The notes under the pieces: generated by a model | What the model was told of the DNA's origin: nothing | The model's input: the letters and a program-made list of their open reading frames with translations, nothing else | Databases searched by the model: none | DNA from: Spirochaetaceae bacterium | GTDB lineage: Bacteria; Spirochaetota; Spirochaetia; Treponematales; Rectinemataceae | Assembly: GCA_025356015.1 (NCBI GenBank) | Contig: JANXYO010000067.1 | Coordinates: forward strand, 1 to 64,000 | Length of the DNA stretch: 64,000 bases | Direction: 5' to 3' | Part shown: piece by piece, positions 7,829 through 57,643 of the stretch | Layout of the letters: every line of letters begins with the position of its first letter | How positions within the stretch are numbered: position 1 is the first letter of the stretch | Position numbers and translations under genes: made by a program

Positions 7829-8826
7829 TCGACTTCATCGCCGGAGTCTTCGGCTCCTCGAACTACTGGTACATCGTCCTGCGCTCCACGGCGCCCATCC
7901 TCCTCGTGACCCTCGGGGCCGTCATCACCGAGCAGGCCGGGATCACCAACATGGCCCTCGAGGGCTCGATGCTCTGGGCAGCCCTGGTCGGGGTCCTGGC
8001 GAGCGCCGCGACCGGCAATGTCTGGATAGGCCTCGCGGGCGGCATCCTCGCCTCCCTCGTCGTCGCCTGGACCTTGGGCTTCTTCGCCCTCAAGCTGAAC
8101 GCCAACGCCGTGCTCTGCGGCGTGGCCCTCAACCTCGTTGGCACCGGCGGCACGGTCTTCGTGCTCTTCTCGCTCACGGGCGACAAGGGCATCTCCTCCT
8201 CCCTCGCGAGCAAGACCCTGCCCTTCATCAAGTTACCCTATTTGGGTGAAATACCCTGGCTCGGCAAGGTGGTCTCGGGCCAGAACATCGTCGTCTACCT
8301 CGCCATCCTCGCCGTCATCGTCGTCCACGTGATCCTCAACAAGCTGACGATCGGCCGACGCATCAGGGCCACGGGGGCCAATGTCGAGGCGGCCCGGAGC
8401 GCGGGCATCGATCCCGACAGGGTGAAGTTCCTCGCCCTCACCGTCTCGGGCGTCCTCGCGGGCCTCGCCGGTTGCTTCCTCTCGATGGGCTACACCTCGA
8501 ACTTCACCTCGGGCATCTCGGCGGGCAGGGGCTATGTCGCCAACGCAGCCCAGGTGGTCGCGGGTGGCACGGCGGTCGGGGCCATCTTCGCCTCCCTCAT
8601 CTTCGGGATCACCGACGCCCTCGCCACCTTCCTCCAGAACATCGGCCTGCCGCCCGAGCTCATCCAGTCCCTGCCCTACGCGGTCACGATCATCGGCTTC
8701 ATAGTTGTGACAATCTCGCGGGACAGGCGCGAGGCTGCCCGCAAGCGCGCCCTCTTCGCATCGGCCCCCGCGGCCGCGCCGCGTGAGCCTGTCCCTCCCA
8801 CTCGACCCGGCAGGGGGGCGGCGTGA
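7825..8826 (+). CDS. Nucleoside ABC transporter permease 2
   Basis: 333 aa, YufQ-like permease forming the heterodimeric channel with the preceding gene. It starts MIDFIAGVFGSSNYW at the ATGA overlap (7825-7828). Family features are ITEQAGITNMALEGSMLWAAL (typical lEGmml motif), GANVEAARSAGIDPDRVK and GRGYVANAAQVVAGG. The frame is also open far upstream, but that upstream part is a shadow of permease 1. The C-terminus ends in an Arg/Pro/Ala-rich tail and overlaps the next gene as GTGA. Confidence 0.9.
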   Translation: MIDFIAGVFGSSNYWYIVLRSTAPILLVTLGAVITEQAGITNMALEGSMLWAALVGVLASAATGNVWIGLAGGILASLVVAWTLGFFALKLNANAVLCGVALNLVGTGGTVFVLFSLTGDKGISSSLASKTLPFIKLPYLGEIPWLGKVVSGQNIVVYLAILAVIVVHVILNKLTIGRRIRATGANVEAARSAGIDPDRVKFLALTVSGVLAGLAGCFLSMGYTSNFTSGISAGRGYVANAAQVVAGGTAVGAIFASLIFGITDALATFLQNIGLPPELIQSLPYAVTIIGFIVVTISRDRREAARKRALFASAPAAAPREPVPPTRPGRGAA

Positions 8827-10154
8827 CCTGCGACCTGGTCATCGAGGGCTGCGCCATCCTCACCCTCGACTCGGGCTACCGCATCTTCGATCCCGGCTTT
8901 GTCGCCGTCGGCTCGGGCCGCATCGTGGGCCTGGGCCTGGCCGGCGAGTCCCTCGCCTACCCCGCGGCCCGCCGCATCGACGCGAGGGGCCGCCTCCTCA
9001 TGCCGGGCTTTGTCAACGTCCACACCCATGTCCCGATGGCGGCCTTCAGGGGGGCGGGCGAGGACATCGACGACCGCCTCTCCCGCTTCATCTTCCCCCT
9101 CGAGAAGAGCCTGGTGGACCGACAGCTCGTCTTCGAGTCCTCGCGCTACTGCCTGGCCGAGATGGCCAGGTCGGGCACCACCTGCTTCGCCGACATGTAC
9201 TACTTCGAGGACGAGGTGGCCAGGGCGGCCAAGCAGCTCGGCATGCGCTGCCTCCTGGGCGAGACGGTGGTAGGCTTCCCCGCCCCCGACGCGGTGGAAG
9301 CCCACGGCGGCCAGGACTACGCGCGGCGCTTCATCGAGGAGTGGCAAGGCGATGCCCTGGTCCAGCCCTGCTTCGCCCCCCACGCCCCCTACAGCGTCGA
9401 CGAGGCCCACCTCAAGGCAATCTGGTCTGAAGCGGAGCGCCTGGGTGTGAAGGTCCTCATGCACCTCGCCGAGACTGAGAAGGAAGCCGCCGCCTTCCGC
9501 GCCTCGCACGGGTCCTCGGTGAGATACCTCGAGTCGATAGGCTGCCTGGGGAGCGGCCTCGTGGCCGCCCACATGATCTACGTCGACGACCAGGACATCG
9601 AGATCCTCTCGAGGCGGGGCGTCGCGATAGCCCACTGCCCCGCCTCAAACGCCAAGTCTGGGAGGCCCATAGCTCCCGCCTACAAATACCGGGCCGCCGG
9701 CCTCCGGCTTGGCCTTGGCACCGACGGGCCGATCTCGGGCAACGGCATGGACATGATGGGGGTCACGGGCCTCTACCCCAAGCTCCAGAAGGTCCTCTCC
9801 GGTCGGCGGGGCGAGGTGGGCGCGAGAGAGGCCCTCAGGGCGGCCACCCTGGGCGGGGCCGAGGCCCTGGGCCTCGCCGACAAGATCGGCTCGATAGAGA
9901 TCGGCAAGCGCGCCGACCTCGTCCTCGCCGACGCGGGGGACTTCAACGTCCAGCCCGTCTATGACTGGTACGCCACAGCCGTCTACGCCCTTCGTCCGCA
10001 CAACGTCCGCACCGTGCTTGTGGATGGGCGCATCATCGTCGAGGAGGGCAGGCTGACCACCCTCGACGAGGACGAGTGCAAGGCCGGCATGCGCGCGATT
10101 GCCGAACGCTGCCGCGGAGAGATCGCGAGGCTTTCCAAGGAGCAGAGTCCATGA
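8823..10154 (+). CDS. Amidohydrolase-family deaminase (SAH/MTA or guanine deaminase-like)
   Basis: 443 aa, TRZ/ATZ-type amidohydrolase. Metal ligands are visible: NVHTHVPM (HxH, ~residues 66-71), HAPYSVDE, LMHLAETEKEA (His and adjacent Glu) and LGTDGPISGNGMD (catalytic Asp). The C-terminal strand domain is GKRADLVLAD. Family members deaminate adenosine-type compounds (S-adenosylhomocysteine, methylthioadenosine), guanine or cytosine. Placement between a nucleoside importer and purine nucleoside phosphorylase argues for a purine substrate, but the exact one is inferred. GTG start at the GTGA overlap with permease 2. Confidence 0.85.
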   Translation: MTCDLVIEGCAILTLDSGYRIFDPGFVAVGSGRIVGLGLAGESLAYPAARRIDARGRLLMPGFVNVHTHVPMAAFRGAGEDIDDRLSRFIFPLEKSLVDRQLVFESSRYCLAEMARSGTTCFADMYYFEDEVARAAKQLGMRCLLGETVVGFPAPDAVEAHGGQDYARRFIEEWQGDALVQPCFAPHAPYSVDEAHLKAIWSEAERLGVKVLMHLAETEKEAAAFRASHGSSVRYLESIGCLGSGLVAAHMIYVDDQDIEILSRRGVAIAHCPASNAKSGRPIAPAYKYRAAGLRLGLGTDGPISGNGMDMMGVTGLYPKLQKVLSGRRGEVGAREALRAATLGGAEALGLADKIGSIEIGKRADLVLADAGDFNVQPVYDWYATAVYALRPHNVRTVLVDGRIIVEEGRLTTLDEDECKAGMRAIAERCRGEIARLSKEQSP

Positions 10155-10882
10155 ACGAGCACGAGATCCTTCCGGAAGGGACGCCCCACATCGCCCCCGA
10201 GGCCCCGATCGCGCCGACTGTCCTCATGCCGGGCGACCCCTTGCGCGCCCAGTACATCGCCGAGAACTTCCTCGAGGGCGCGAGGCAGTTCAACCGCGTC
10301 CGCGGCATGCTCGGCTTCACGGGGAGCTACAAGGGCATGCAGGTCTCGGTCATGGGCTCGGGCATGGGCATACCCTCGATGGGGATCTACTCCTACGAGC
10401 TCTTCAAGCAATTCGGGGCAAAGCGGATCCTCCGCCTGGGGACCTGCGGAGCTTACCGCGAGGACATGGAGTTAGGCGACATCGTCATGGCCCAGGCATC
10501 GTCGACCAACTCCTCTTGGGCGAGCCAGTACGAGCTCGGCGGGACCTTTTCGGCCATCCCCGACTTCGGCCTCCTCGAGGCCGCCGTGGCCACCGCGCGG
10601 AGGCTCAGGAAGCGCTTTGTCGTCGGCAACACCCTCTGCCTGGACCAGTTCTCGCGCTACCACAAGACGCCGCAGGTGTGGAAGCCCTGGGTCGAGATGG
10701 GCATCGTCGCTGGCGACATGGAGGCCTTCGCCCTGTACTGCAACGCTGCCGCCTGCGGGGGCAGGGCCCTCGCCATGTTCACCGTCTCCGACCTCAGGCT
10801 CAAGGACCTCCACATGAGCGTGGAGGAGCGCGAGAGGGCCCTTGGCTCCATGATCGAGGTGGCTCTCGAATCCCTCCTTTAG
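10151..10882 (+). CDS. deoD: Purine-nucleoside phosphorylase
   Basis: 243 aa, hexameric PNP of the DeoD type. It cleaves purine (deoxy)ribonucleosides with phosphate to base plus (deoxy)ribose-1-phosphate. Motifs: PGDPLRAQYIAENFL (phosphate loop), GSGMGIPSMGIYSYELF, RLGTCGAY, GDMEAFALYCNA and VSDLRLK (catalytic Asp region). It starts ATGAACGAGC at the ATGA overlap with the deaminase gene; the frame is open further upstream but that is a shadow. Last gene of the operon: imported nucleosides are deaminated and/or phosphorolysed here. Confidence 0.93.
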   Translation: MNEHEILPEGTPHIAPEAPIAPTVLMPGDPLRAQYIAENFLEGARQFNRVRGMLGFTGSYKGMQVSVMGSGMGIPSMGIYSYELFKQFGAKRILRLGTCGAYREDMELGDIVMAQASSTNSSWASQYELGGTFSAIPDFGLLEAAVATARRLRKRFVVGNTLCLDQFSRYHKTPQVWKPWVEMGIVAGDMEAFALYCNAAACGGRALAMFTVSDLRLKDLHMSVEERERALGSMIEVALESLL

Positions 10883-10921
10883 TCGAAGAGACCATAGGCG
10901 AGGGGACCAGCGGCGAAGGGT

Positions 10922-12289
10922 CTAGAGGTCCATGGTCGAGCGGTAGGCCGAGGTCTTCCTGCGGTGCTCTGCCCGGGCCGCCGCGAGGATCGCGGGGGCC
11001 TTGAGGAGCTCGAGCCCCGTCCCAGCGAGGACCTTGGCCGCCCAGAGCATCGCCTTGAAGCCCTGGGACGAGCCCGAGGCCGCGCAGGACTGCCAGGTGT
11101 GTGCCCCTACCCCGAGAGGCCAGGTGGCGGCGTTCATCTGGCCCGTCGGCGCGACGTAGGAGACATCGCCGACATCGAGGGAACCCGCGATCCTGAAACC
11201 CTCGCCGTAGTCGCCGACAGCCCCGTGGATCGCCTCCTTGAGGAGGGTGGATGGAGCCCCGATGATCGAGAGGGTCGAGCCGCGGTCGGCCTTGCCCACT
11301 GCGGACGCAAGCTTCGAGGCAAAGTCCCTCTCCTTGGCGTCGTGGGAAGGCAGGGGAGTCGCGCGCATCACCCCAAGGATGCAGTCGTGGATCGCGTCGT
11401 TGGGGATGAAGTCGCACTTGCCGTGGCTGGCCTCCCAGGAGAAGGAGGTCTCGGTCATCATGGCCGCGCCCTTGGCGACCTTGAGCACCCGCTTGAAGGC
11501 CGAGCGGACATCGGCCCCCCTCGGCCCGCGGATATAGAGGGCCATAGCGGCCTCGGCCGGCACGATGTTGGGCCGCCTGCCCCCGTCGGTGATCACGTAG
11601 TGGAAGAGGATCCCCCTCGCCACGTGCTCGCGAAGGAACTCGATCCCCAGGTTCATGAGCTGGACAGCGTCCAGGGCCGACCTGCCCACGTGGGGGGCCA
11701 TTGCCGCGTGGCTCGCCCTTCCCTTGAAGCGGAAGCTCAAGGCGAGGTTGGCGCTCGTCGAGTAGCGGTGGGTGGTGTTGAGGTCGGCGGGATGCCAGGA
11801 GAGGGCGGCGTCCAGATCGTCGAAGCGTCCGGCCTTGACCAGGGGGATGCGCCCCAGGGCCTCCTCTGCCGGGCAGCCGTAGTAGCGCACGGTGCCCGGA
11901 AGCCTGTTGGCCTTCGCGGCATCGGCGAGGGCGGCGGCGGCAGCCAGGGAACCCACGCCCAGGAGGTTGTGGCCGCAGGCGTGGCCCGGCCCCCCCTCGA
12001 CCAGGGCCTGTTTCAAGGCCGAGCAGGCCTGGGACATCCCGGGCAGGGCGTCGTACTCGCCCATGATGCCGATGACAGGCTTCCCCTTCCCCTTCTCGGC
12101 GAAAAAGGAATGCTTCATCTCGGGGCACTCTGTGATGCGGAAACCCAGGGCTCCCAGGTGATCGCGATGGAGGGCCGAGGACCTCTCTTCCTGGTAGGAG
12201 GTCTCGGGATGCTCCCAGATGTCCTTCGCGAGAGCGGTGTATTCCCGTCCGTGCGAATCGATGTAGGCTGCGATGCCCTTCCCGTCCAT
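10922..12289 (-). CDS. M20-family amidohydrolase, AbgB-like
   Basis: 455 aa. It resembles p-aminobenzoyl-glutamate hydrolase subunit B and related amidohydrolases: IWEHPETSYQE, GIMGEYDALPGMSQ, metal site GPGHACGHNLLG, YGCPAEE, and a dimerisation-domain stretch FKGRASHAAMAPHVGRSALDA. The C-terminal ligand region has PTGQMNAATWPLGVGAHTWQS. The substrate is unknown; the paralogue at 2483-3787 is only distantly similar by eye. It faces the nucleoside operon tail to tail (39 bp apart) and lies 20 bp downstream of the sensor kinase gene. Confidence 0.85.
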   Translation of the reverse strand: MDGKGIAAYIDSHGREYTALAKDIWEHPETSYQEERSSALHRDHLGALGFRITECPEMKHSFFAEKGKGKPVIGIMGEYDALPGMSQACSALKQALVEGGPGHACGHNLLGVGSLAAAAALADAAKANRLPGTVRYYGCPAEEALGRIPLVKAGRFDDLDAALSWHPADLNTTHRYSTSANLALSFRFKGRASHAAMAPHVGRSALDAVQLMNLGIEFLREHVARGILFHYVITDGGRRPNIVPAEAAMALYIRGPRGADVRSAFKRVLKVAKGAAMMTETSFSWEASHGKCDFIPNDAIHDCILGVMRATPLPSHDAKERDFASKLASAVGKADRGSTLSIIGAPSTLLKEAIHGAVGDYGEGFRIAGSLDVGDVSYVAPTGQMNAATWPLGVGAHTWQSCAASGSSQGFKAMLWAAKVLAGTGLELLKAPAILAAARAEHRRKTSAYRSTMDL

Positions 12290-49840: not shown

Positions 49841-50791
49841 CTACTTGATGATCGCGAGTTTGCGCCGGTCGAAGGTCACGGCGACGGCCACGATGATGAG
49901 GACGCCGAGGAAGACCTGCTGGGCATAGACGTCGATGCCGATCACGGTCATGCCGTTGTTCAGTATTCCCATGATCAGGCTCCCGATCAGGGTGTTGAGG
50001 ACGCCGCCGGCGCCCCCCGTCATCGCCGTGCCTCCGACCACGACTACGGCGATCGAGTTGAGCACGTAGGTGCCGCCGATGGAGGGATAGCCCGAGTAGA
50101 GGGTGGCCGAGAGGATGATCCCGGCGACCGCGGCGCCGAAGCCCGAGAAGGTGAAGGCGAGTATCCTGATCCTGTCGATGTCCAGACCGGAGAGGTAGGA
50201 CATCCTTTCGTTCGCGCCGATGTACATGATGCCCCTGCCCAGCCGCGTGTAGGCCTGCATGGCAAAGAAGCCGGCGAAGAGCACGAGGCCGATGATCCAC
50301 ACGTTCTTCACGGGGCCGATGGAGCCGTTGATGATGTCGACCAGACCGTAGGAGTTCTCGGGAACGGAGAGGGGGGAGGCGGAAAGGAGGTAGGCGACGC
50401 TTATGAGGATGCCCTGGGTGCCGAGGGTGGCTATGAAGGAGGGGATGCGGAGCTTTGACACGATGAGGCCGTTGAGGAAGCCCGCTCCAAGACCCAGGAC
50501 CATGACCACGGGGTAGGCCCAGGCCCCCAGCTGGCCGATGACCAGCATGAAGACGACGGAGACGAGGGACATGATGGAGCCCACCGAGAGGTCTATGCCC
50601 CCCGTGAGGATGACGCAGACCTGGCCAAGGCCGACGGCGAGCAGGATCGCCACGGCGTTGAGTATGGTCTGTGCGTTGTAGAGCGAGATGAAGGTTCGGT
50701 CCCCGATCGTGAAGACCGCGACGAGGAGGAAGAACATCCCCAGCGAGATATAGATGGGCTTGATGCCCGCGATCCTCAGTTTCATTTTCAT
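49841..50791 (-). CDS. Sugar ABC transporter permease (RbsC-like) 2
   Basis: 316 aa, BPD_transp_2 family. Helices throughout, with TGGIDLSVGSIMSLVSVVFML, RLGRGIMYIGANERMSYLSGLD (coupling loop) and SIAVVVVGGTAMTGGAGG. With the permease at 52343-53365 it would form a heterodimeric channel, while the other ribose-type importer in the window has only one permease gene. Confidence 0.92.
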   Translation of the reverse strand: MKMKLRIAGIKPIYISLGMFFLLVAVFTIGDRTFISLYNAQTILNAVAILLAVGLGQVCVILTGGIDLSVGSIMSLVSVVFMLVIGQLGAWAYPVVMVLGLGAGFLNGLIVSKLRIPSFIATLGTQGILISVAYLLSASPLSVPENSYGLVDIINGSIGPVKNVWIIGLVLFAGFFAMQAYTRLGRGIMYIGANERMSYLSGLDIDRIRILAFTFSGFGAAVAGIILSATLYSGYPSIGGTYVLNSIAVVVVGGTAMTGGAGGVLNTLIGSLIMGILNNGMTVIGIDVYAQQVFLGVLIIVAVAVTFDRRKLAIIK

Positions 50792-50801
50792 CCTTCCTTC
50801 T

Positions 50802-52322
50802 CTAGACGATGTAGCCGATCACCGCGACCGGCGCCGGCTTGGCGTCCTTGGGGCAGGGGATCTCCCGCACGATCCTGCCGTCCTTCATGACGATCATGCG
50901 GTTCGAGAGTCCGATATCCTCCTCGAGGGTGTCGCACATGATGATGATTGAGAGGCCGGCGGCGGCGAGGGCGCGTATGCGCCGGTAGATCTCGTCCTTG
51001 GCGCCGACATCGATGCCCCTGGTTGGATGGTCAAGCACGAGGATGGCGGCCTCGGCGGCCAGCCACTTGGCGATGACGACCTTCTGCTGGTTGCCTCCCG
51101 AGAGAGTGGAGCAGGAGGTCTGGAGGGAGGGTGTCTTTATGAGGCACTCCTCGACCCAGCGCCGGGCGCTGGCCTTCTCCAGCGCGGGCTTGAGGAAGGG
51201 CCCCGAGCGCATCCTGTCCAGGATGAGGAGGTTGATGTTGCTCATCACATCGAGCGAGGTGGCGAGCCCGTCGTTCCTGCGGTCGATGGGAACGATGCCG
51301 ATCCCAGCGTCGATGGCGTTCTTGGGGCTCGCAAAGCGGGCCGGCTTCCCGTGGACGGCGATGCTGCCCGAGTCCGGGACTTCCGAGCCACCGAGGCAGC
51401 GGCAGACCTCCTCCTTGCCCGAGCCCATGAGGCCCACGAGGCTGACGATCTCGCCCCTGTGCAGGTCCATGGAGAAGTCCTCGAAGCGGCCCCCGAGGCG
51501 GAGCTCCTTGACGCAGAGGACGACCTCGCTCCCGCAATCAGTCTGCATCGACTCTCGATAGTGCTCGACCGCGAGCTCGTGCCCGACCATGAGGCGTTCG
51601 ATCGCCTTGACGTCGGCCTGGCCACGCCCCAGGTCGGCCATGAGCCTGCCGTCCTTCAGGACGACGATCCTGTCGGAGAGCTGCACGACCTCCTCGAGGC
51701 GGTGCGAGATGAACACGATCGAGGCGCGGGCCTTTAGCGCGCCCAGGATGGAGAAGAGCCTCTCCACCTCGCTCTCCTGGAGCACCGTGGTGGGCTCGTC
51801 CAGGATGAGGATGGGGTTGTCGACGCCATAGAGCCGCGATAGCCAGAGCAGCCTCGCGATCTCCAGCATCTGCTTCTCGGCCGATGAGATATCCCCCACC
51901 GTGGACTTGGGGTTCAGCCTGCCCAGGCCCACGGCCTCGAGCTCGCCCCGCGCCGCCTGGGCCATGGCCTTCACGGGCATTAAGGGCCCGCGGCCAAAAC
52001 TGTCCTCGTTCCCGAGGAAGAGGTTGTCCATGACCGAGAGGTTCGGGATCATGCAGCCTTCCTGGAAGACCATACCGATGCCCTTGCGTATCGCCGCCGA
52101 GGGACCGTCCAGGGCGGCCCTCTCTCCGCGGAGGAAGTACTCGCCCTCGTCGACAGTCTGCAGCCCGATCAGGATCTTCATAAGGGTCGACTTCCCGGCC
52201 CCGTTCTCGCCCACTAGTCCCAGTATCTCGTTGCGCTCGACGCGGAAGTCCACGCCGTCCAGGGCAGTGACTCCCGGGAAGGCCTTCTTCGCCCGCTTGA
52301 GCTCGAGGATGGTTTCACCCAT
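50802..52322 (-). CDS. Sugar ABC transporter ATP-binding protein (RbsA-like, tandem NBD)
   Basis: 506 aa with two NBDs. NBD1: GENGAGKSTLMK, SAEKQMLEIARLLW, LILDEPTTVLQESE. NBD2: GLMGSGKEEVCRCL, STLSGGNQQKVVIAKWL, LVLDHPTRGIDVGAK (His in place of the Walker B glutamate, common in this family). The C-terminal end KDAKPAPVAVIGYIV is unusual. Lies between the two permease genes. Confidence 0.92.
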   Translation of the reverse strand: MGETILELKRAKKAFPGVTALDGVDFRVERNEILGLVGENGAGKSTLMKILIGLQTVDEGEYFLRGERAALDGPSAAIRKGIGMVFQEGCMIPNLSVMDNLFLGNEDSFGRGPLMPVKAMAQAARGELEAVGLGRLNPKSTVGDISSAEKQMLEIARLLWLSRLYGVDNPILILDEPTTVLQESEVERLFSILGALKARASIVFISHRLEEVVQLSDRIVVLKDGRLMADLGRGQADVKAIERLMVGHELAVEHYRESMQTDCGSEVVLCVKELRLGGRFEDFSMDLHRGEIVSLVGLMGSGKEEVCRCLGGSEVPDSGSIAVHGKPARFASPKNAIDAGIGIVPIDRRNDGLATSLDVMSNINLLILDRMRSGPFLKPALEKASARRWVEECLIKTPSLQTSCSTLSGGNQQKVVIAKWLAAEAAILVLDHPTRGIDVGAKDEIYRRIRALAAAGLSIIIMCDTLEEDIGLSNRMIVMKDGRIVREIPCPKDAKPAPVAVIGYIV

Positions 52323-52342: not shown

Positions 52343-53365
52343 CTACTTGATTATGCCGATCTTCTTGCGGTCGATGGTGACGGCGACTGCCGCGATGAGG
52401 ACTATCCCGTTCACCGCGTTCTGCAGGTAGGGACTGACCTTCATGAGCACCATGCCGTTGTTGAGCGCTGTGACGATCAGGGCTCCGAACACCGCGTTTA
52501 GTGCCCCGCCCACGCCGCCCGAGAGGGAAACGCCGCCGACGGCGACCGCGGTCATGGCAGGGAACATGAGGTCCTTGCCGGTGCGCGGATTGGAGCTCGC
52601 GAGCCTGGCGACAAGTAGGATCGAGGCCAGGGCATAGATGCAGCCCGTGATCGTGAAGACGATCACCTTGACCCTGTCGACCTTGATGCCGGCCTGGCGG
52701 GCGAGTGTCTCGTCGCCGCCTATCGCGTAGAGGTAGCGCCCGAAGCGCGTCCGCCTCTGCACGACGAAAAGGATGGCGAAAACCCCGAGGGCGATGAGGA
52801 TGGTGACGGGTATGCCCATCACGTCCCCGTTGGCGATGTTCTGGAAGCGCTGGTCGAGCATCTTAACGGCGTTGCCCTTGCCGATTATGACTGCCAGGCC
52901 CTGGGTCACCCACCACATTCCAAGGGTGGCGATGAAGGAGGGCATGCGGATCTTCGTGTTGATGAGGCCGTTGACCAGGCCCGCGCTGCCGCCTATGAGT
53001 ATCGCCACCGGGATGACCCAGAAGCCGATGTCGTAGGCAGTGAAGGGATTCTTGATCAGGAAGCCCGAGGTCACGGCCGCCAGGGAGATGACGCCCTCGG
53101 TTGAGAGGTCCATCGCGCCGATGACGACCACCTGGTGTATGGCCAGGCAGATGATCATGGGAATGCCGGCGAGACTCAGGATGGTCTGGAGATTCTTGAG
53201 CGACACCGAGGTCCCGGCGGTGCCGATGGCGAAGATGAGCATGACGATGGCGAGGGCGACGATCTGCCCCCGCGTGCCCTTGGAGGCGAAGCTCAGGAGG
53301 CGTGAGGCCAGGGGGCGCGTGGCCGCGCGGGGCGCTGTCGATGCTGCTGCTGCGAGTCCGTCCAT
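52343..53365 (-). CDS. Sugar ABC transporter permease (RbsC-like) 1
   Basis: 340 aa, BPD_transp_2 family. An N-terminal cytoplasmic extension rich in Ala/Arg (~25 residues) precedes the first helix (IVALAIVMLIFAIGTAG). Motifs: GAMDLSTEGVISLAAV, RTRFGRYLYAIGGDETLARQAGI and VAVGGVSLSGGVGG. First transporter gene after the binding protein, separated from it by ~150 bp containing strong hairpins. Confidence 0.92.
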   Translation of the reverse strand: MDGLAAAASTAPRAATRPLASRLLSFASKGTRGQIVALAIVMLIFAIGTAGTSVSLKNLQTILSLAGIPMIICLAIHQVVVIGAMDLSTEGVISLAAVTSGFLIKNPFTAYDIGFWVIPVAILIGGSAGLVNGLINTKIRMPSFIATLGMWWVTQGLAVIIGKGNAVKMLDQRFQNIANGDVMGIPVTILIALGVFAILFVVQRRTRFGRYLYAIGGDETLARQAGIKVDRVKVIVFTITGCIYALASILLVARLASSNPRTGKDLMFPAMTAVAVGGVSLSGGVGGALNAVFGALIVTALNNGMVLMKVSPYLQNAVNGIVLIAAVAVTIDRKKIGIIK

Positions 53366-53515: not shown

Positions 53516-54550
53516 TCACTTGATCGGTGCTACGTAGGAGCCGTAGTAGTCGTTCCAGTCGTACTTCGGGGTTCCCTTCACGTAGGTCGCGATGATCGAG
53601 TCAATGTTCGCGCTGGTGACCTCGACGGCCTTGGCGAAGAAGGCCCTCTTCTCGACGGGGAGGGTCTTGACGTTGATCTTGCCGTCCTTCGCGGCCAGGG
53701 CAAGGGAGAGGCCCATGCCACCCTGCCAGAAGGCGGGGTTGATGACGGTGGCGGCGGCCTCTCCGGCCTTGACCGCTGCGATCATCTCGTCGACGCCATC
53801 GCAGCCTACGACCTTGACCTTGCCGGCGAGACCGGCGGCCCGGATCGCCTCGAGGGCGCCGAGGGCCATGTTGTCGTTCGCTGCCCACACGCCGCCCACA
53901 TCGGGGTTGGCGACGAGGAAGCTCTTCATCTTCTCAAAGGCCTTGGTGCGGTCCCACTCGGCGGTGTCGACGGCGGCGAGGGTGATGCCGGGCGCCTTCT
54001 TGAGTGCGGCCTGGAGGCCGGTGTAGCGCTCGATGGCCGTGGTGTTGGCGAGCATGCCCTGGAGGGCGACGATCTTGCCCTTGCCGCCCATGGACTTGAA
54101 GAGCTCGTTGCCCATGAACTCGCCGGCGAGTGTGCCGGAGAAGGAGATGTGCGCGACCCAATGCGGATAGTCGGTCACCTTCACGGTGTCGGGCTTGTTC
54201 CAGTAGGTCACGAAGTACACACCGGCGGCCTCGAGGGCCTTGGCGATCGGGATGACGTTGGGGGACTCGTTGGGGTCGATGCTGAACACGGCGTTCTTGC
54301 CGGCCTTGGCGATGAGGGCCTTGATGTCATTGAGCTGCTTCTCGCTCGAACCTTCGCAGGTCTGGATGACTGCGATGCCGCCGACCGAGTCGGCGAAGGA
54401 CTGGGCGCCACGCGCCCACACCGCGTGGTAGGGATTCTCGAGCGAGCGGATCGCGGTTCCCATGAATACGCCGCTCGCCTTCTGGGCGAAGGCGGTGGTG
54501 ACGGACAGCGCGAGGAGCACTGCGAGCACCAGAACCAAGGTCTTCTTCAT
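53516..54550 (-). CDS. Sugar ABC transporter substrate-binding protein (ribose type)
   Basis: 344 aa from ATG 54550 (AGGAGG seven bases upstream; frame open further to 54691 but that covers the promoter). Signal peptide MKKTLVLVLAVLLALSVTTAFAQ, no lipobox. Periplasmic_binding_4 fold: LNDIKALIAKAGKNAVFSIDPNESP, GKIVALQGMLANTTAIERYTG, VWAANDNMALGALEAIRAAGL, VVGCDGVDEMIAAVKAGEAAATV. First gene of the importer operon regulated from 54606-54659; ligand unknown. Confidence 0.9.
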   Translation of the reverse strand: MKKTLVLVLAVLLALSVTTAFAQKASGVFMGTAIRSLENPYHAVWARGAQSFADSVGGIAVIQTCEGSSEKQLNDIKALIAKAGKNAVFSIDPNESPNVIPIAKALEAAGVYFVTYWNKPDTVKVTDYPHWVAHISFSGTLAGEFMGNELFKSMGGKGKIVALQGMLANTTAIERYTGLQAALKKAPGITLAAVDTAEWDRTKAFEKMKSFLVANPDVGGVWAANDNMALGALEAIRAAGLAGKVKVVGCDGVDEMIAAVKAGEAAATVINPAFWQGGMGLSLALAAKDGKINVKTLPVEKRAFFAKAVEVTSANIDSIIATYVKGTPKYDWNDYYGSYVAPIK

Positions 54551-54605
54551 CACATAGCCTCCTGATTGGATATGGGCGCGCGGTGAGTGCACGCGAGCCG
54601 TCCTC

Positions 54606-54659
54606 AGAATAGCATGCCCCTTCGATCTGTCAACTTGTTTTATAACTTTCTTATCTAAC
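54606..54659 (-). promoter_or_regulatory. Importer operon promoter with upstream conserved box
   Basis: Minus strand: -35 TTGACA (54633-54628), 16-bp spacer, -10 TATTCT (54611-54606). Three bases upstream of the -35 lies a 23-bp box (54659-54637) of pattern GTTA-N3-AA-N-AAAGTTA-N-AAAAC, also found at the ROK gene promoter (18 of 23 bases identical). An inverted pair ATAACT/AGTTAT spans 54642-54667 over part of it. Confidence 0.6.
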
Positions 54660-54739
54660 ATAGTTATTCCACAATATCGAGGCATTCGCACATATGAGAA
54701 AGCCGCGGGAGAGGTGGCGAGGACCGCAAGGGAAGAGGC

Positions 54740-54810
54740 GGGGACAGAAGAGGCGGGGACAGAGCTCGACTCAGCGGCGAGGGGACGGTCGCCTGGGGAC
54801 AGATCTCGGA
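54740..54810 (+). repeat. Cluster of four GGGGACAG-type repeats
   Basis: Plus-strand cores at 54740-54747, 54755-54762, 54781-54788 (GGGGACGG variant) and 54795-54802, some followed by GAGCTCG or GATCTCG. They lie in the non-coding stretch between the ROK gene end and the importer promoter, so coding constraint cannot explain them. Confidence 0.75.
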
Positions 54811-54821
54811 TAGCCGAAGCC

Positions 54822-56066
54822 TTATCCTATGATGAGGCCCGAGAAGTAATTGTCGATGACGGCCGCCGCCCCGCCGATGACTCCCCGCTCCTCGCCCATG
54901 GTGGAGTACTCGATCCTCACCTTCTTCTCGACGTCGGGAAGGCCGATGTGGCGGATGCCTTCGCGGAGCCTTTCGATGAAATGGCCCCCCGCCTTCACAT
55001 ACTCGCCCTGGATCACGATGAGCTCGGGGTCATTGGTCATGATGATGTTGCCGAGCCCGACGATGAACCAGTCCGCAGCCTCGTCGACGAGCCCGAGGCA
55101 GAGTTCGTCCCCGTTGGCCGCTCCCTCGCAGATCTCGGCGAGGCCGAAGCTCTCGCTGCCCGAGAACAGGACCGAGTCGGGGTGGAGGGACTGGGCTTCG
55201 CGCGCGAGGCCGACGATCCGCTTGGCGGAGACCATGGCCTCGAAGCAGCCGCGGTTGCCGCATATGCAGGGAAAGCCCTCGCGCGGATCCAGGGTCATGT
55301 GGCCGATCTCGCCGGAGAGGCTCTGGTGGCCGAGCGCCACCTCGCCCTGGACGATGAAGCCTGCGCCCAGGCCCTCGCGGAGGGCGTCAATGACGACGAA
55401 ATCGTCGCATCCGACGGCCACTCCCTTTTCCCTCTCGGCGATGGCCTGGATCCTGTTGGCATTGTCGATGAAGATCGGGGCCGAAGGGCGCTCGCCGAGG
55501 GTCTCCGCCAGCCTGGCCTCGAGGATCTCTGTGAAGGCAAGCTCCCTCCCCCACTCGGGATAGTGGGGGGAATAGATGGAAACCCCGCGCTGGGGATCGA
55601 CAAGGCCGGGCAGGATCACGACGATTCCCAGGAGGATCTGGCCGGAGCTTGCCTTGAGGGCTGTGAAGCTCCGGACCAGCTCAGCGAGGCGCCTCATCAC
55701 GGCCTCGATGCCAAGCTCGCGGGAGAGGTCGGTATTGCGGAGGTAGGTGATGCTCGCCGTCAGGTCCGTGGTGACGGCGACGATCGCGTCGGGGGTCACG
55801 TGGATGCTGATGGCATAGCCATACTCGACGTTGAAGCGGAACAGCTCGGGCTTTTTCCCGCCCTCGTCGGTCGAGTCTCCCTTTCCCGCCGAGAGCAGGA
55901 GTCCCTTGTCGACCAGGGTGTCAAAGATCTTCTTGACCGTGGTCTTGCTCAGCTGGACCGATTCGCTGATCTCGGCGACCGAGAAGATCCCGCCCCGCCT
56001 CATGAGGTCGAGAACTGCCCTTGTGTTGTTCTGCTTGAGGTTCCAAGGCTTGCCGCCTGATCGCAT
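54822..56066 (-). CDS. ROK-family transcriptional repressor
   Basis: 414 aa from ATG 56066 (GAGAGGAG 11 bases upstream). N-terminal winged helix (residues ~8-60: NNTRAVLDLMRRGGIFSVAEISESVQLSKTTVKKI given as blocks) and a ROK sugar-kinase-like domain: zinc motif CICGNRGCFE, GEIGHMTLDP and LREGLGAGFIVQGEV. The ATP-binding DxGxT loop is not conserved (AVTTDLTASI), so it is a sensor, not a kinase (XylR/NagC type). Located between the importer operon and the KDPG aldolase operon with its own promoter; a 23-bp box shared with the importer promoter suggests joint control. Confidence 0.9.
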   Translation of the reverse strand: MRSGGKPWNLKQNNTRAVLDLMRRGGIFSVAEISESVQLSKTTVKKIFDTLVDKGLLLSAGKGDSTDEGGKKPELFRFNVEYGYAISIHVTPDAIVAVTTDLTASITYLRNTDLSRELGIEAVMRRLAELVRSFTALKASSGQILLGIVVILPGLVDPQRGVSIYSPHYPEWGRELAFTEILEARLAETLGERPSAPIFIDNANRIQAIAEREKGVAVGCDDFVVIDALREGLGAGFIVQGEVALGHQSLSGEIGHMTLDPREGFPCICGNRGCFEAMVSAKRIVGLAREAQSLHPDSVLFSGSESFGLAEICEGAANGDELCLGLVDEAADWFIVGLGNIIMTNDPELIVIQGEYVKAGGHFIERLREGIRHIGLPDVEKKVRIEYSTMGEERGVIGGAAAVIDNYFSGLIIG

Positions 56067-56099
56067 TGGTTTGGCCACTCCTCTCTCGTTATGCGAGGG

Positions 56100-56154
56100 A
56101 GTATGCCGTGGCCCGTGCAACCAGGTCAAGCGTTTTCTAACTTTATTGCATAAC
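56100..56154 (-). promoter_or_regulatory. ROK gene promoter with upstream conserved box
   Basis: Minus strand: -35 TTGACC (56129-56124), 18-bp spacer, -10 CATACT (56105-56100). Two bases upstream of the -35 lies the 23-bp box (56154-56132), GTTA-N3-AA-N-AAAGTTA-N-AAAAC, in the same position as at the importer promoter. A separate GTTATGC/GCATAAC pair (about 56088-56094 and 56148-56154) brackets the promoter. Confidence 0.6.
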
Positions 56155-56180
56155 CCGAGGCATGTCGGTCCGTCCGGGGC

Positions 56181-56822
56181 CTACTTCTGCCGGATCGCCG
56201 CCGCCTGTCCGACCGCGGCGCGGCAGAGCTCGGCGATCTCGGCGAACTTCCCGCCAAAGATCAGCTCCTCCTTGACCATCCAGCTGCCACCGACCGCTGC
56301 CACGAAGGGAAGGGCAAGATAGGACTCGAGATTGGACAGCTCGACCCCGCCCGTGGGGACAAAGCTTGCCTCGCCGTAGGGACCGTGGAGGGACTTGAGC
56401 ATCTTCACCCCGCCGGAAGCCTCAGCAGGGAAGAACTTGAGGAGTGTCAGGCCGCGTTCGAGGCCCTGCTCGACCTGGGAGGGCGAGTTGATCCCGGGTA
56501 TCACCGGAAGGCCTCGGGCGATGCAGAAGTCCACGATCCGGGGATTGAATCCCGGGGTCACCGCGAATGCCGCACCTGCCTCTATCGCCGCCTCGACCTG
56601 CTCGGTCGTGAGCACTGTCCCCGCGCCAAGGAGGATCGAGGGATGGTTCTTCCTGATAAGCCTGATCGCCTCGGCCGCGGCCTTTGTCCTGAAGGTCACC
56701 TCGGCCACGGGAAGCCTGCCGGCGATGAGGGCCTCGGCGAGGGGCAGGGCCCACTCGGCCTTCTCGAGCTTGATGACGGGAACGATGCCCATGCCCCGGA
56801 GTGCCTCGAAGATTTCGCTCAT
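56181..56822 (-). CDS. eda: 2-keto-3-deoxy-6-phosphogluconate (KDPG/KHG) aldolase
   Basis: 213 aa from ATG 56822 (AAAGGAG eight bases upstream; overlaps the DeoR stop as ATGA). Class I aldolase splitting KDPG to pyruvate and glyceraldehyde-3-phosphate. Motifs: VIKLEKAEWALPLAEAL, AEVTFRT (catalytic Glu), GAGTVLTTEQVEAA, VTPGFNPRIV and LLKFFPAEASGG with the Schiff-base Lys. Terminal gene of the catabolic operon that begins outside the window, implying that pathway ends in a 2-keto-3-deoxy sugar-acid phosphate. Confidence 0.92.
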   Translation of the reverse strand: MSEIFEALRGMGIVPVIKLEKAEWALPLAEALIAGRLPVAEVTFRTKAAAEAIRLIRKNHPSILLGAGTVLTTEQVEAAIEAGAAFAVTPGFNPRIVDFCIARGLPVIPGINSPSQVEQGLERGLTLLKFFPAEASGGVKMLKSLHGPYGEASFVPTGGVELSNLESYLALPFVAAVGGSWMVKEELIFGGKFAEIAELCRAAVGQAAAIRQK

Positions 56823-57643
56823 TCTTTTGCTCCTTTCCTTGATTGAGTATCGGATGCTGGCCCGCCCGGGTGGGCGAGGAGGAGCTCGATGCCGAGCTCC
56901 TCGAGTGACTTCTGGTCCTCCTCGCCGACAGCATCGGTCACCAGGCAGTCCACCAAGGGGGGGGCCGCGAAGAGGGCGAAGGAATTCCGGCCGAGCTTTG
57001 ACGAATCGACCAACAAGTAGACCTTGGTCGCCATGGAGACCATGAGGCGCTTGAGCTCGGCCTGCTGGAGGTCGGGCGTGCTCGCCCCCTTGTCCACCGA
57101 GAAGCTGTTCGCCGCCATGAAGGCCTTGTCGACAGTCAGGCCCTCGAGAGCGGCGGCGGCCCGGGCGCCGACCGCGCAGTGGAAACGCTTTCGCAGGACC
57201 CCGCCGATAAGGTGGATCGTGGCGCTTGGATGCTCCTCGAGGCGAAGGGCGATCTCGAGATCGTTCGTGAGGACGGTGATGTCCCTCTTCCCGTCGAGGA
57301 GGCAGGCGAGCTCGTAGATCGTGGTGCCTGTGTCGAGGATGATCGTGTCGCCATCGTCGATTCTCTCGAGGGCCGCTGCCGCGATCGCCCGCTTCTCCTC
57401 GAGCTTGGCAGTCTCTTTCGCGCGTGCGTCGGGCTCGAAGCGGGCCTGGCGCTTCACCATCGCCCCCCCGTGGGTGCGAAGCAGGGAACCGCCCTGTTCG
57501 AGGTCGCGGAGGTCGGAGCGGATCGTTGCGCTCGAGACGCCGAAGCGCTCGCAGAGCTCCCCGACCGAGGCCTTCTTCCTCTCCGTGACGTACTCGAGGA
57601 TGCCCCGCTTGCGCTCCTCGACGAAGACAAGTTCCTTCTTCAC
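56819..57643 (-). CDS. DeoR-family transcriptional regulator
   Basis: 274 aa. N-terminal DeoR helix-turn-helix (residues ~8-58: RKRGILEYVTERKKASVGEL, FGVSSATIRSDLRDLEQ) and a DeoRC sugar-phosphate sensor domain: ILDTGTTIYELACLL, TVLTNDLEIALRL, DSSKLGRNSFALFA. Such regulators are usually repressors released by a phosphorylated sugar. Embedded between the lactonase and aldolase genes, so it most likely controls this operon. Confidence 0.9.
   Translation of the reverse strand: MKKELVFVEERKRGILEYVTERKKASVGELCERFGVSSATIRSDLRDLEQGGSLLRTHGGAMVKRQARFEPDARAKETAKLEEKRAIAAAALERIDDGDTIILDTGTTIYELACLLDGKRDITVLTNDLEIALRLEEHPSATIHLIGGVLRKRFHCAVGARAAAALEGLTVDKAFMAANSFSVDKGASTPDLQQAELKRLMVSMATKVYLLVDSSKLGRNSFALFAAPPLVDCLVTDAVGEEDQKSLEELGIELLLAHPGGPASDTQSRKGAKE

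Follow-up and report, generated by a model that had tools for sequence, protein, structure and literature searches.

A 23-bp box lies just upstream of both the predicted promoter of a ROK-family regulator gene and that of the adjoining sugar importer genes in the window, by which we mean the whole 64,000-nucleotide stretch of Spirochaetaceae DNA analysed here. This arrangement raises the question of which protein reads the box, and to what effect. A sequence-only reading of the locus had proposed either a ROK binding site in an activator-like position or a strong UP element, and had regarded both as unusual for a ROK repressor circuit. Comparison with related genomes suggests that the adjacent ROK regulator very probably uses the box as its operator and would thereby control both its own expression and the sugar import operon beside it. 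Whether the regulator acts mainly by repression is a much closer call, on which we lean slightly towards yes. Most likely, the circuit relies on a genuine ROK operator of an already known type in a conserved position. An uncharacterised spirochaete ROK lineage would thereby be linked to a defined operator and target set.

Genes around the two boxes

On the minus strand, the genes and boxes run in the order DeoR-type regulator, KDPG/KHG aldolase, box, ROK, box, sugar-binding protein, permease, ATPase, permease. The ROK gene occupies 54822..56066 with an ATG start at 56066, and a longer frame with a TTG start begins within its promoter. The importer, which is of the CUT2 type, comprises a periplasmic sugar-binding protein similar to RbsB/AlsB (Peripla_BP_4, 53516..54550), a permease (BPD_transp_2, 52343..53365), an ATPase with two ABC_tran stretches (50802..52322) and a second permease (49841..50791) that was judged from its position and by eye. 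The DeoR-family gene (56819-57643) lies two genes upstream of ROK. Because the cluster also encodes an SDR, two zinc-type dehydrogenases, an FGGY kinase and a PGDH-like enzyme, it is likely to be a sugar or sugar-acid catabolic locus; none of these enzymes reached an equivalog cut-off. Two repeats were seen in the stretch that separates ROK from the importer genes: GAAGAGGCGGGGACA occurs in two exact tandem copies at 54732-54761, and GGGGACAGAGCTCG/GGGGACAGATCTCG in two spaced copies at 54755-54808.

The regulator appears to combine a winged HTH with a ROK domain. The ROK domain scored 118.3 bits against PF00480 (cut-off 22.9), and the N-terminus reached 19.9 bits for HTH_24, slightly below the cut-off of 21.9, and aligned with the N-terminal part of Lmo0178. 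A GExGH motif and a Cys-rich CxCGxxGC motif, which we take to be ROK-family motifs in this protein, were kept in all ten aligned homologs, and a conserved AGKGxSTDEGGKKP-like stretch followed the HTH. The protein did not reach the NCBIfam equivalog cut-offs for NagC and Mlc (158.5 bits against 650 and 126.8 against 530, respectively).

Copies of the box in the genome and in a relative

Box 1 (54637..54659, read on the minus strand from 54659 to 54637 as GTTAGATAAGAAAGTTATAAAAC) is a putative operator 5' of the importer promoter, and box 2 (56132..56154, read from 56154 to 56132 as GTTATGCAATAAAGTTAGAAAAC) is its counterpart 5' of the ROK promoter. The two share 18 of 23 bases. The description from which we started thus held in its positions, its identity count and its remark on an A/T-rich box in GC-rich DNA, the window having 34.5% A+T. 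With up to three mismatches, the box pattern gave no match in 100 dinucleotide shuffles of the window, and in the window's own genome (4,165,611 bases; 4.17 Mb) it matched only boxes 1 and 2, the reversed-pattern control giving one match. The sequence-only reading had argued that many unrelated promoters carrying the box would favour a general UP element, but this genome-wide motif search returned no further copy.

A search of 58 related genomes with at most one mismatch found three places, all inside the ROK clusters of the window and of Spirochaetaceae bacterium UBA1318 (G030); the reversed control gave three single matches in three other genomes. Among these 58 genomes, a close ROK ortholog was present in UBA1318 only, at 60% identity on contig DBTK01000030.1. 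When up to three mismatches were allowed, UBA1318 had exactly two boxes, both inside its ROK cluster, against three matches for the reversed control, and among the homolog loci of the 58-genome search the box occurred only in the UBA1318 ortholog locus (L004) and the window's own locus (L003). One UBA1318 box stands before the gene for a CUT1-type binding protein, after which come permeases, a GH88 hydrolase and ROK; the second stands before a TIM-barrel gene just past ROK. Since the importer is CUT2-type in the window and CUT1-type in UBA1318, the box, judged from sequence, follows the ROK regulator and not the transporter. The same putative operator would then have been placed before two unrelated importer classes. 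In UBA1318, positions 7990-12153 of locus L033 hold the CUT1-type importer and the GH88 hydrolase behind the same box, at the place where the window has its CUT2-type importer.

Box-like sites upstream of more distant ROK homologs

We then widened the set of homologs. A draw of 392 genomes from the phylum contained eight with a match at E <=1e-45, the window's own genome included, and supplied eight further ROK homologs of 34-48% identity; a draw of 390 genomes from the order added two more, at 33% and 31% identity. For a held-out test, a matrix built from the four boxes of the window and UBA1318 only was applied to the ROK upstream regions of these ten homologs, with 300 shuffles each. The numbers of shuffles that reached the score of the real region were 2, 0, 8, 15, 99, 7, 0, 7, 0 and 4. 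Most shuffles were therefore beaten in nine of the ten homologs, the failure being genome G609 (99 of 300), and the Fisher combination over nine homologs, with one of the near-identical loci L081 and L082 dropped, gave p = 9e-9. ROK upstream regions also outscored 83 other upstream regions of the same eight loci (p = 5e-5). Among the regions of its locus the ROK region ranked first in four cases, second in three and sixth in one, where one first and one second place were ties with a divergent gene that uses the same region, and the sixth place (L081, rank 6 of 14) came from a called ROK start too far upstream, which put the box outside the tested region.

Box-like sites thus precede most of the tested ROK homologs of 31-48% identity, and the box occurs together with ROK orthologs and not away from them, weakly so in genomes G609 and G565. 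These results support the ROK binding site proposed earlier: in two genomes every copy falls in a ROK cluster, and the box tends to accompany ROK orthologs throughout the phylum. At up to four mismatches, seven of the 22 order-level homolog loci (L034-L055) had a match, which in L044 was far from ROK, and 15 had none, so that distant ROKs appear mostly to use other sites.

Form of the site

The direct GTTA repeats 13 bp apart that had been pointed out are present, with 7 of 10 matching positions in box 1 and 6 of 10 in box 2. The boxes can also be read as inverted repeats, with 7 of 11 and 6 of 11 pairs matching (shuffle p = 0.008 and 0.05). For the four closest sites, those of the window and UBA1318, the two readings left the matter undecided (7, 6, 7 and 7 of 10 for the direct repeat; 7, 6, 6 and 6 of 11 for the inverted repeat). 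We nevertheless set the direct repeat aside and preferred the inverted repeat, since its positions hold in the more distant sites. In an alignment of 11 sites, T2, A8, A9, T15, A20-A22 and C23 were invariant, G1 was kept in nine and T16 in ten, and G14, the G of the second GTTA, was kept in six; some of these sites had been selected by means of the first pattern, which biases the counts in its favour. Across the same sites, 5-9 of 11 inverted-repeat pairs matched, with the outer GTT/AAC and the inner AA/TT mostly kept, and the scores of single sites ranged from p = 0.002 to 0.43, mostly non-significant on their own. The box frame therefore fits an imperfect inverted repeat of 23 bp, GTT-N4-AA-N5-TT-N4-AAC, and it has the T-rich left end and A-rich right end of ROK operators.

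The exact inverted-repeat frame occurred at two places in UBA1318, which are its two boxes (control 0), and at three in the window's own genome, which are boxes 1 and 2 and a place beside an IclR-family gene (control 1). It occurred at three places in genome G644, one of them at the ROK promoter (control 15), and at ten in genome G660, one of them at an SDR promoter (control 7); the frame alone is non-specific in these two genomes. With one mismatch it was uninformative in the window's own genome, giving ten places against 26 in the control. We took the third exact match there (C118:12424-12446, locus L124) as unrelated: it contains GGAAC-AAA-GTTCC and lies 5' of an IclR-family gene, which was named by eye. 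This palindrome sits within the GTT...AAC frame and is perhaps the operator of the IclR-like regulator. A match on contig C28 of genome G660 was likewise put aside, no tie to ROK being seen.

Register between box and promoter

All promoters were predicted by consensus scoring only. On this basis, the importer promoter has its -35 TTGACA at 54628..54633, 3 bp past box 1, and its -10 TATTCT at 54606..54611, with an extended -10 TG and a 16-bp spacer. The predicted ROK promoter has its -35 TTGACC at 56124..56129, 2 bp past box 2, and its -10 CATACT at 56100..56105, with an 18-bp spacer. Both are on the minus strand, the distances of 2-3 bp agree with those first reported, and in neither case does the box reach into the -35 hexamer. 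The importer core promoter is one of only 42 matches to TTGACA-N15-18-TATNNT in its genome, and most box sites are followed by a predicted -35 TTGACA with an extended -10.

The distance from the end of the box to the predicted -10 was 25 bp for the window importer, 26 bp for the window ROK gene, 25 bp for both the TIM-barrel gene and the importer of UBA1318, 25 and 26 bp for the two ROK genes of genome G453, 25 bp for the ROK genes of G644 and G609, and 27 bp for a TIM-barrel gene of G154. A register of 25-27 bp is thus found in nine sites, with a gap of 2-4 bp between box and predicted -35, a geometry like that of CysR sites. One of the nine, the second ROK gene of G453 (L076), has two overlapping copies, of which the counted 26-bp copy scores lower (16.4 against 17.3 bits); the better-scoring copy ends 39 bp before the -10. 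In two further sites, upstream of the G660 ROK gene and a G659 TIM-barrel gene, the box ends 13 bp before the -10 and the predicted -35 lies inside it. Consensus scoring gave no clear promoter fitting the box for the G660 SDR gene, for G565, whose best site is without a convincing -10, or for two ROK-side views. The predicted -10 of the ROK genes in G644 (L077) and G609 (L079) ends 6 bp before the ATG, so their messages are possibly leaderless. In a paralogous ROK group (L036, L037, L046 and L050), a related box like GTTTTnTAASTATACTAAGTAAG covers the predicted -10; the best predicted -10 lies inside the box in all four loci.

Comparison with known ROK systems

We found nothing on point about ROK sites in spirochaetes in the open-licence literature, and compared the box with ROK sites of other bacteria. 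The nearest parallel in position is CysR of Corynebacterium glutamicum, whose inverted repeat is reported to lie 3 bp 5' of the -35 in all four activated promoters with mapped starts; activation was abolished on losing the repeat, and at promoters that its site overlaps CysR is a repressor (PMC2580772). The sites of CysR and SsuR, as given there, resemble the box in being inverted repeats whose 5' arm is T-rich and whose 3' arm is A-rich, and at several promoters the CysR site ends 3 bp before the -35, in the register seen here, but their arms are 10 bp long with a spacer of 6-8 bp, and they serve sulphur genes instead of a sugar cluster (PMC2580772). CysR and SsuR being ROK-type activators, with CysR sites just 5' of the -35, the earlier judgement that such a site is unusual for a ROK circuit was too strong.

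Other relatives resemble the box in its ends. Mlc and NagC of E. coli and RokB of Streptomyces use sites with T-rich left and A-rich right ends around a spacer, for example TTTGTTC-11X-GAACAAA for RokB on PnovH (PMC4856308), but with another consensus and other targets, and the scores of the ROK protein here are well under the equivalog cut-offs for NagC and Mlc. XylR of Bacillus and its relatives is a ROK repressor adjoining a sugar operon, with the site GTTT-N7-AAAC, and a title cited by the same source names tandem overlapping xyl operators (PMC9104551); the sites here differ in being 23 bp long, with outer GTT/AAC, and in lying 5' of the -35. The best solved homolog, by comparison of protein sequences, is Lmo0178 of Listeria (PDB 5f7p, 5f7q and 5f7r; E = 2e-35).

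Repression, activation and other readings

An activator or a UP element would also need the fixed register. It is very unlikely that the box is an A/T-rich UP element contacted by alpha-CTD and lacking a regulator of its own. The box does fill the UP position, being A/T-rich at about -40 to -60; the A/T fraction there is 0.83 at the importer promoter, the highest among 30 checked of the 42 TTGACA promoters, and a few other TTGACA promoters also have A-tracts beside the -35. UP elements need A-tracts, however, and are not known to need a fixed GTT...AAC frame, whereas the G/C ends and spacing of the box are kept with ROK orthologs. Because the box is restricted to ROK clusters and precedes most ROK homologs, a general UP element is not the main explanation, and as the full explanation we ruled it out because no other place in the genome has the box; lying at -38 to -60, the A/T-rich box may well serve in addition as a UP element that ROK covers. 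Nor is it at all probable that the box is read by a different regulator encoded in the cluster, for instance the DeoR-family protein. The UBA1318 cluster does contain a gene that starts similarly, but the regulator beside box-like sites in more distant genomes is ROK, no listed open reading frame in three of these loci (L075, L077 and L079) starts like the DeoR protein when protein starts are compared, and the T-rich and A-rich ends fit published ROK sites.

That ROK is an activator or dual regulator, which at -38 to -60 would contact alpha-CTD or sigma and activate its own transcription together with that of the importer, in the manner of CysR, strikes us as possible but doubtful. The proposed activator-like position stood in so far as the geometry is right, conserved and matched by CysR sites, which activate from 3 bp 5' of the -35 (PMC2580772) against 2-4 bp here, and the register is kept in independent placements before two importer classes and before ROK and TIM-barrel promoters. 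On the other hand, position alone does not prove an activator: near-consensus core promoters should need none, the box overlaps the -35 or -10 in G660, G659 and the paralog group, and CysR itself belongs to the ROK family only distantly, if at all, in the view of its authors, and its effector, O-acetyl-serine/homoserine, is not a sugar (PMC2580772). We favour repression because the core promoters come close to consensus and the registers are shifted in relatives.

Under repression by ROK, one dimer would bind the 23-bp inverted repeat and, when the sugar is absent, occupy about -38 to -60, probably together with a weaker third half-site overlapping the -35. Bound ROK would keep sigma region 4 and alpha-CTD off the strong core promoters, and binding of the sugar would release it. 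The fixed register could then reflect either the third half-site at the -35 or contact with RNA polymerase as by an activator. It is unlikely, but conceivable, that a phylum-wide lineage of sugar-cluster ROKs consists of activators or dual regulators with a register-locked operator (25-27 bp before the -10) and the -35 as third half-site, such that a shift by one half-site (about 12 bp) switches the sign. A fixed register beside strong core promoters offers a simple test of the choice between repression and activation by ROK.

The third half-site would arise where TTGACA is followed by R-A-Y, which resembles TT-N4-AAC. R-A-Y follows the -35 in seven of ten box promoters and in one of 41 other TTGACA promoters (p = 8e-6), a feature chosen after looking, with AT-rich genomes mixed in and with two L078 sites, L080 and the ROK-side views of L059 and L081 left out; for the window and UBA1318 only, it was found in three of four (p = 0.001). 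G644 and G154 have a clear half-site of this kind, whereas the importer promoter of the window has only a partial one and its ROK promoter has none.
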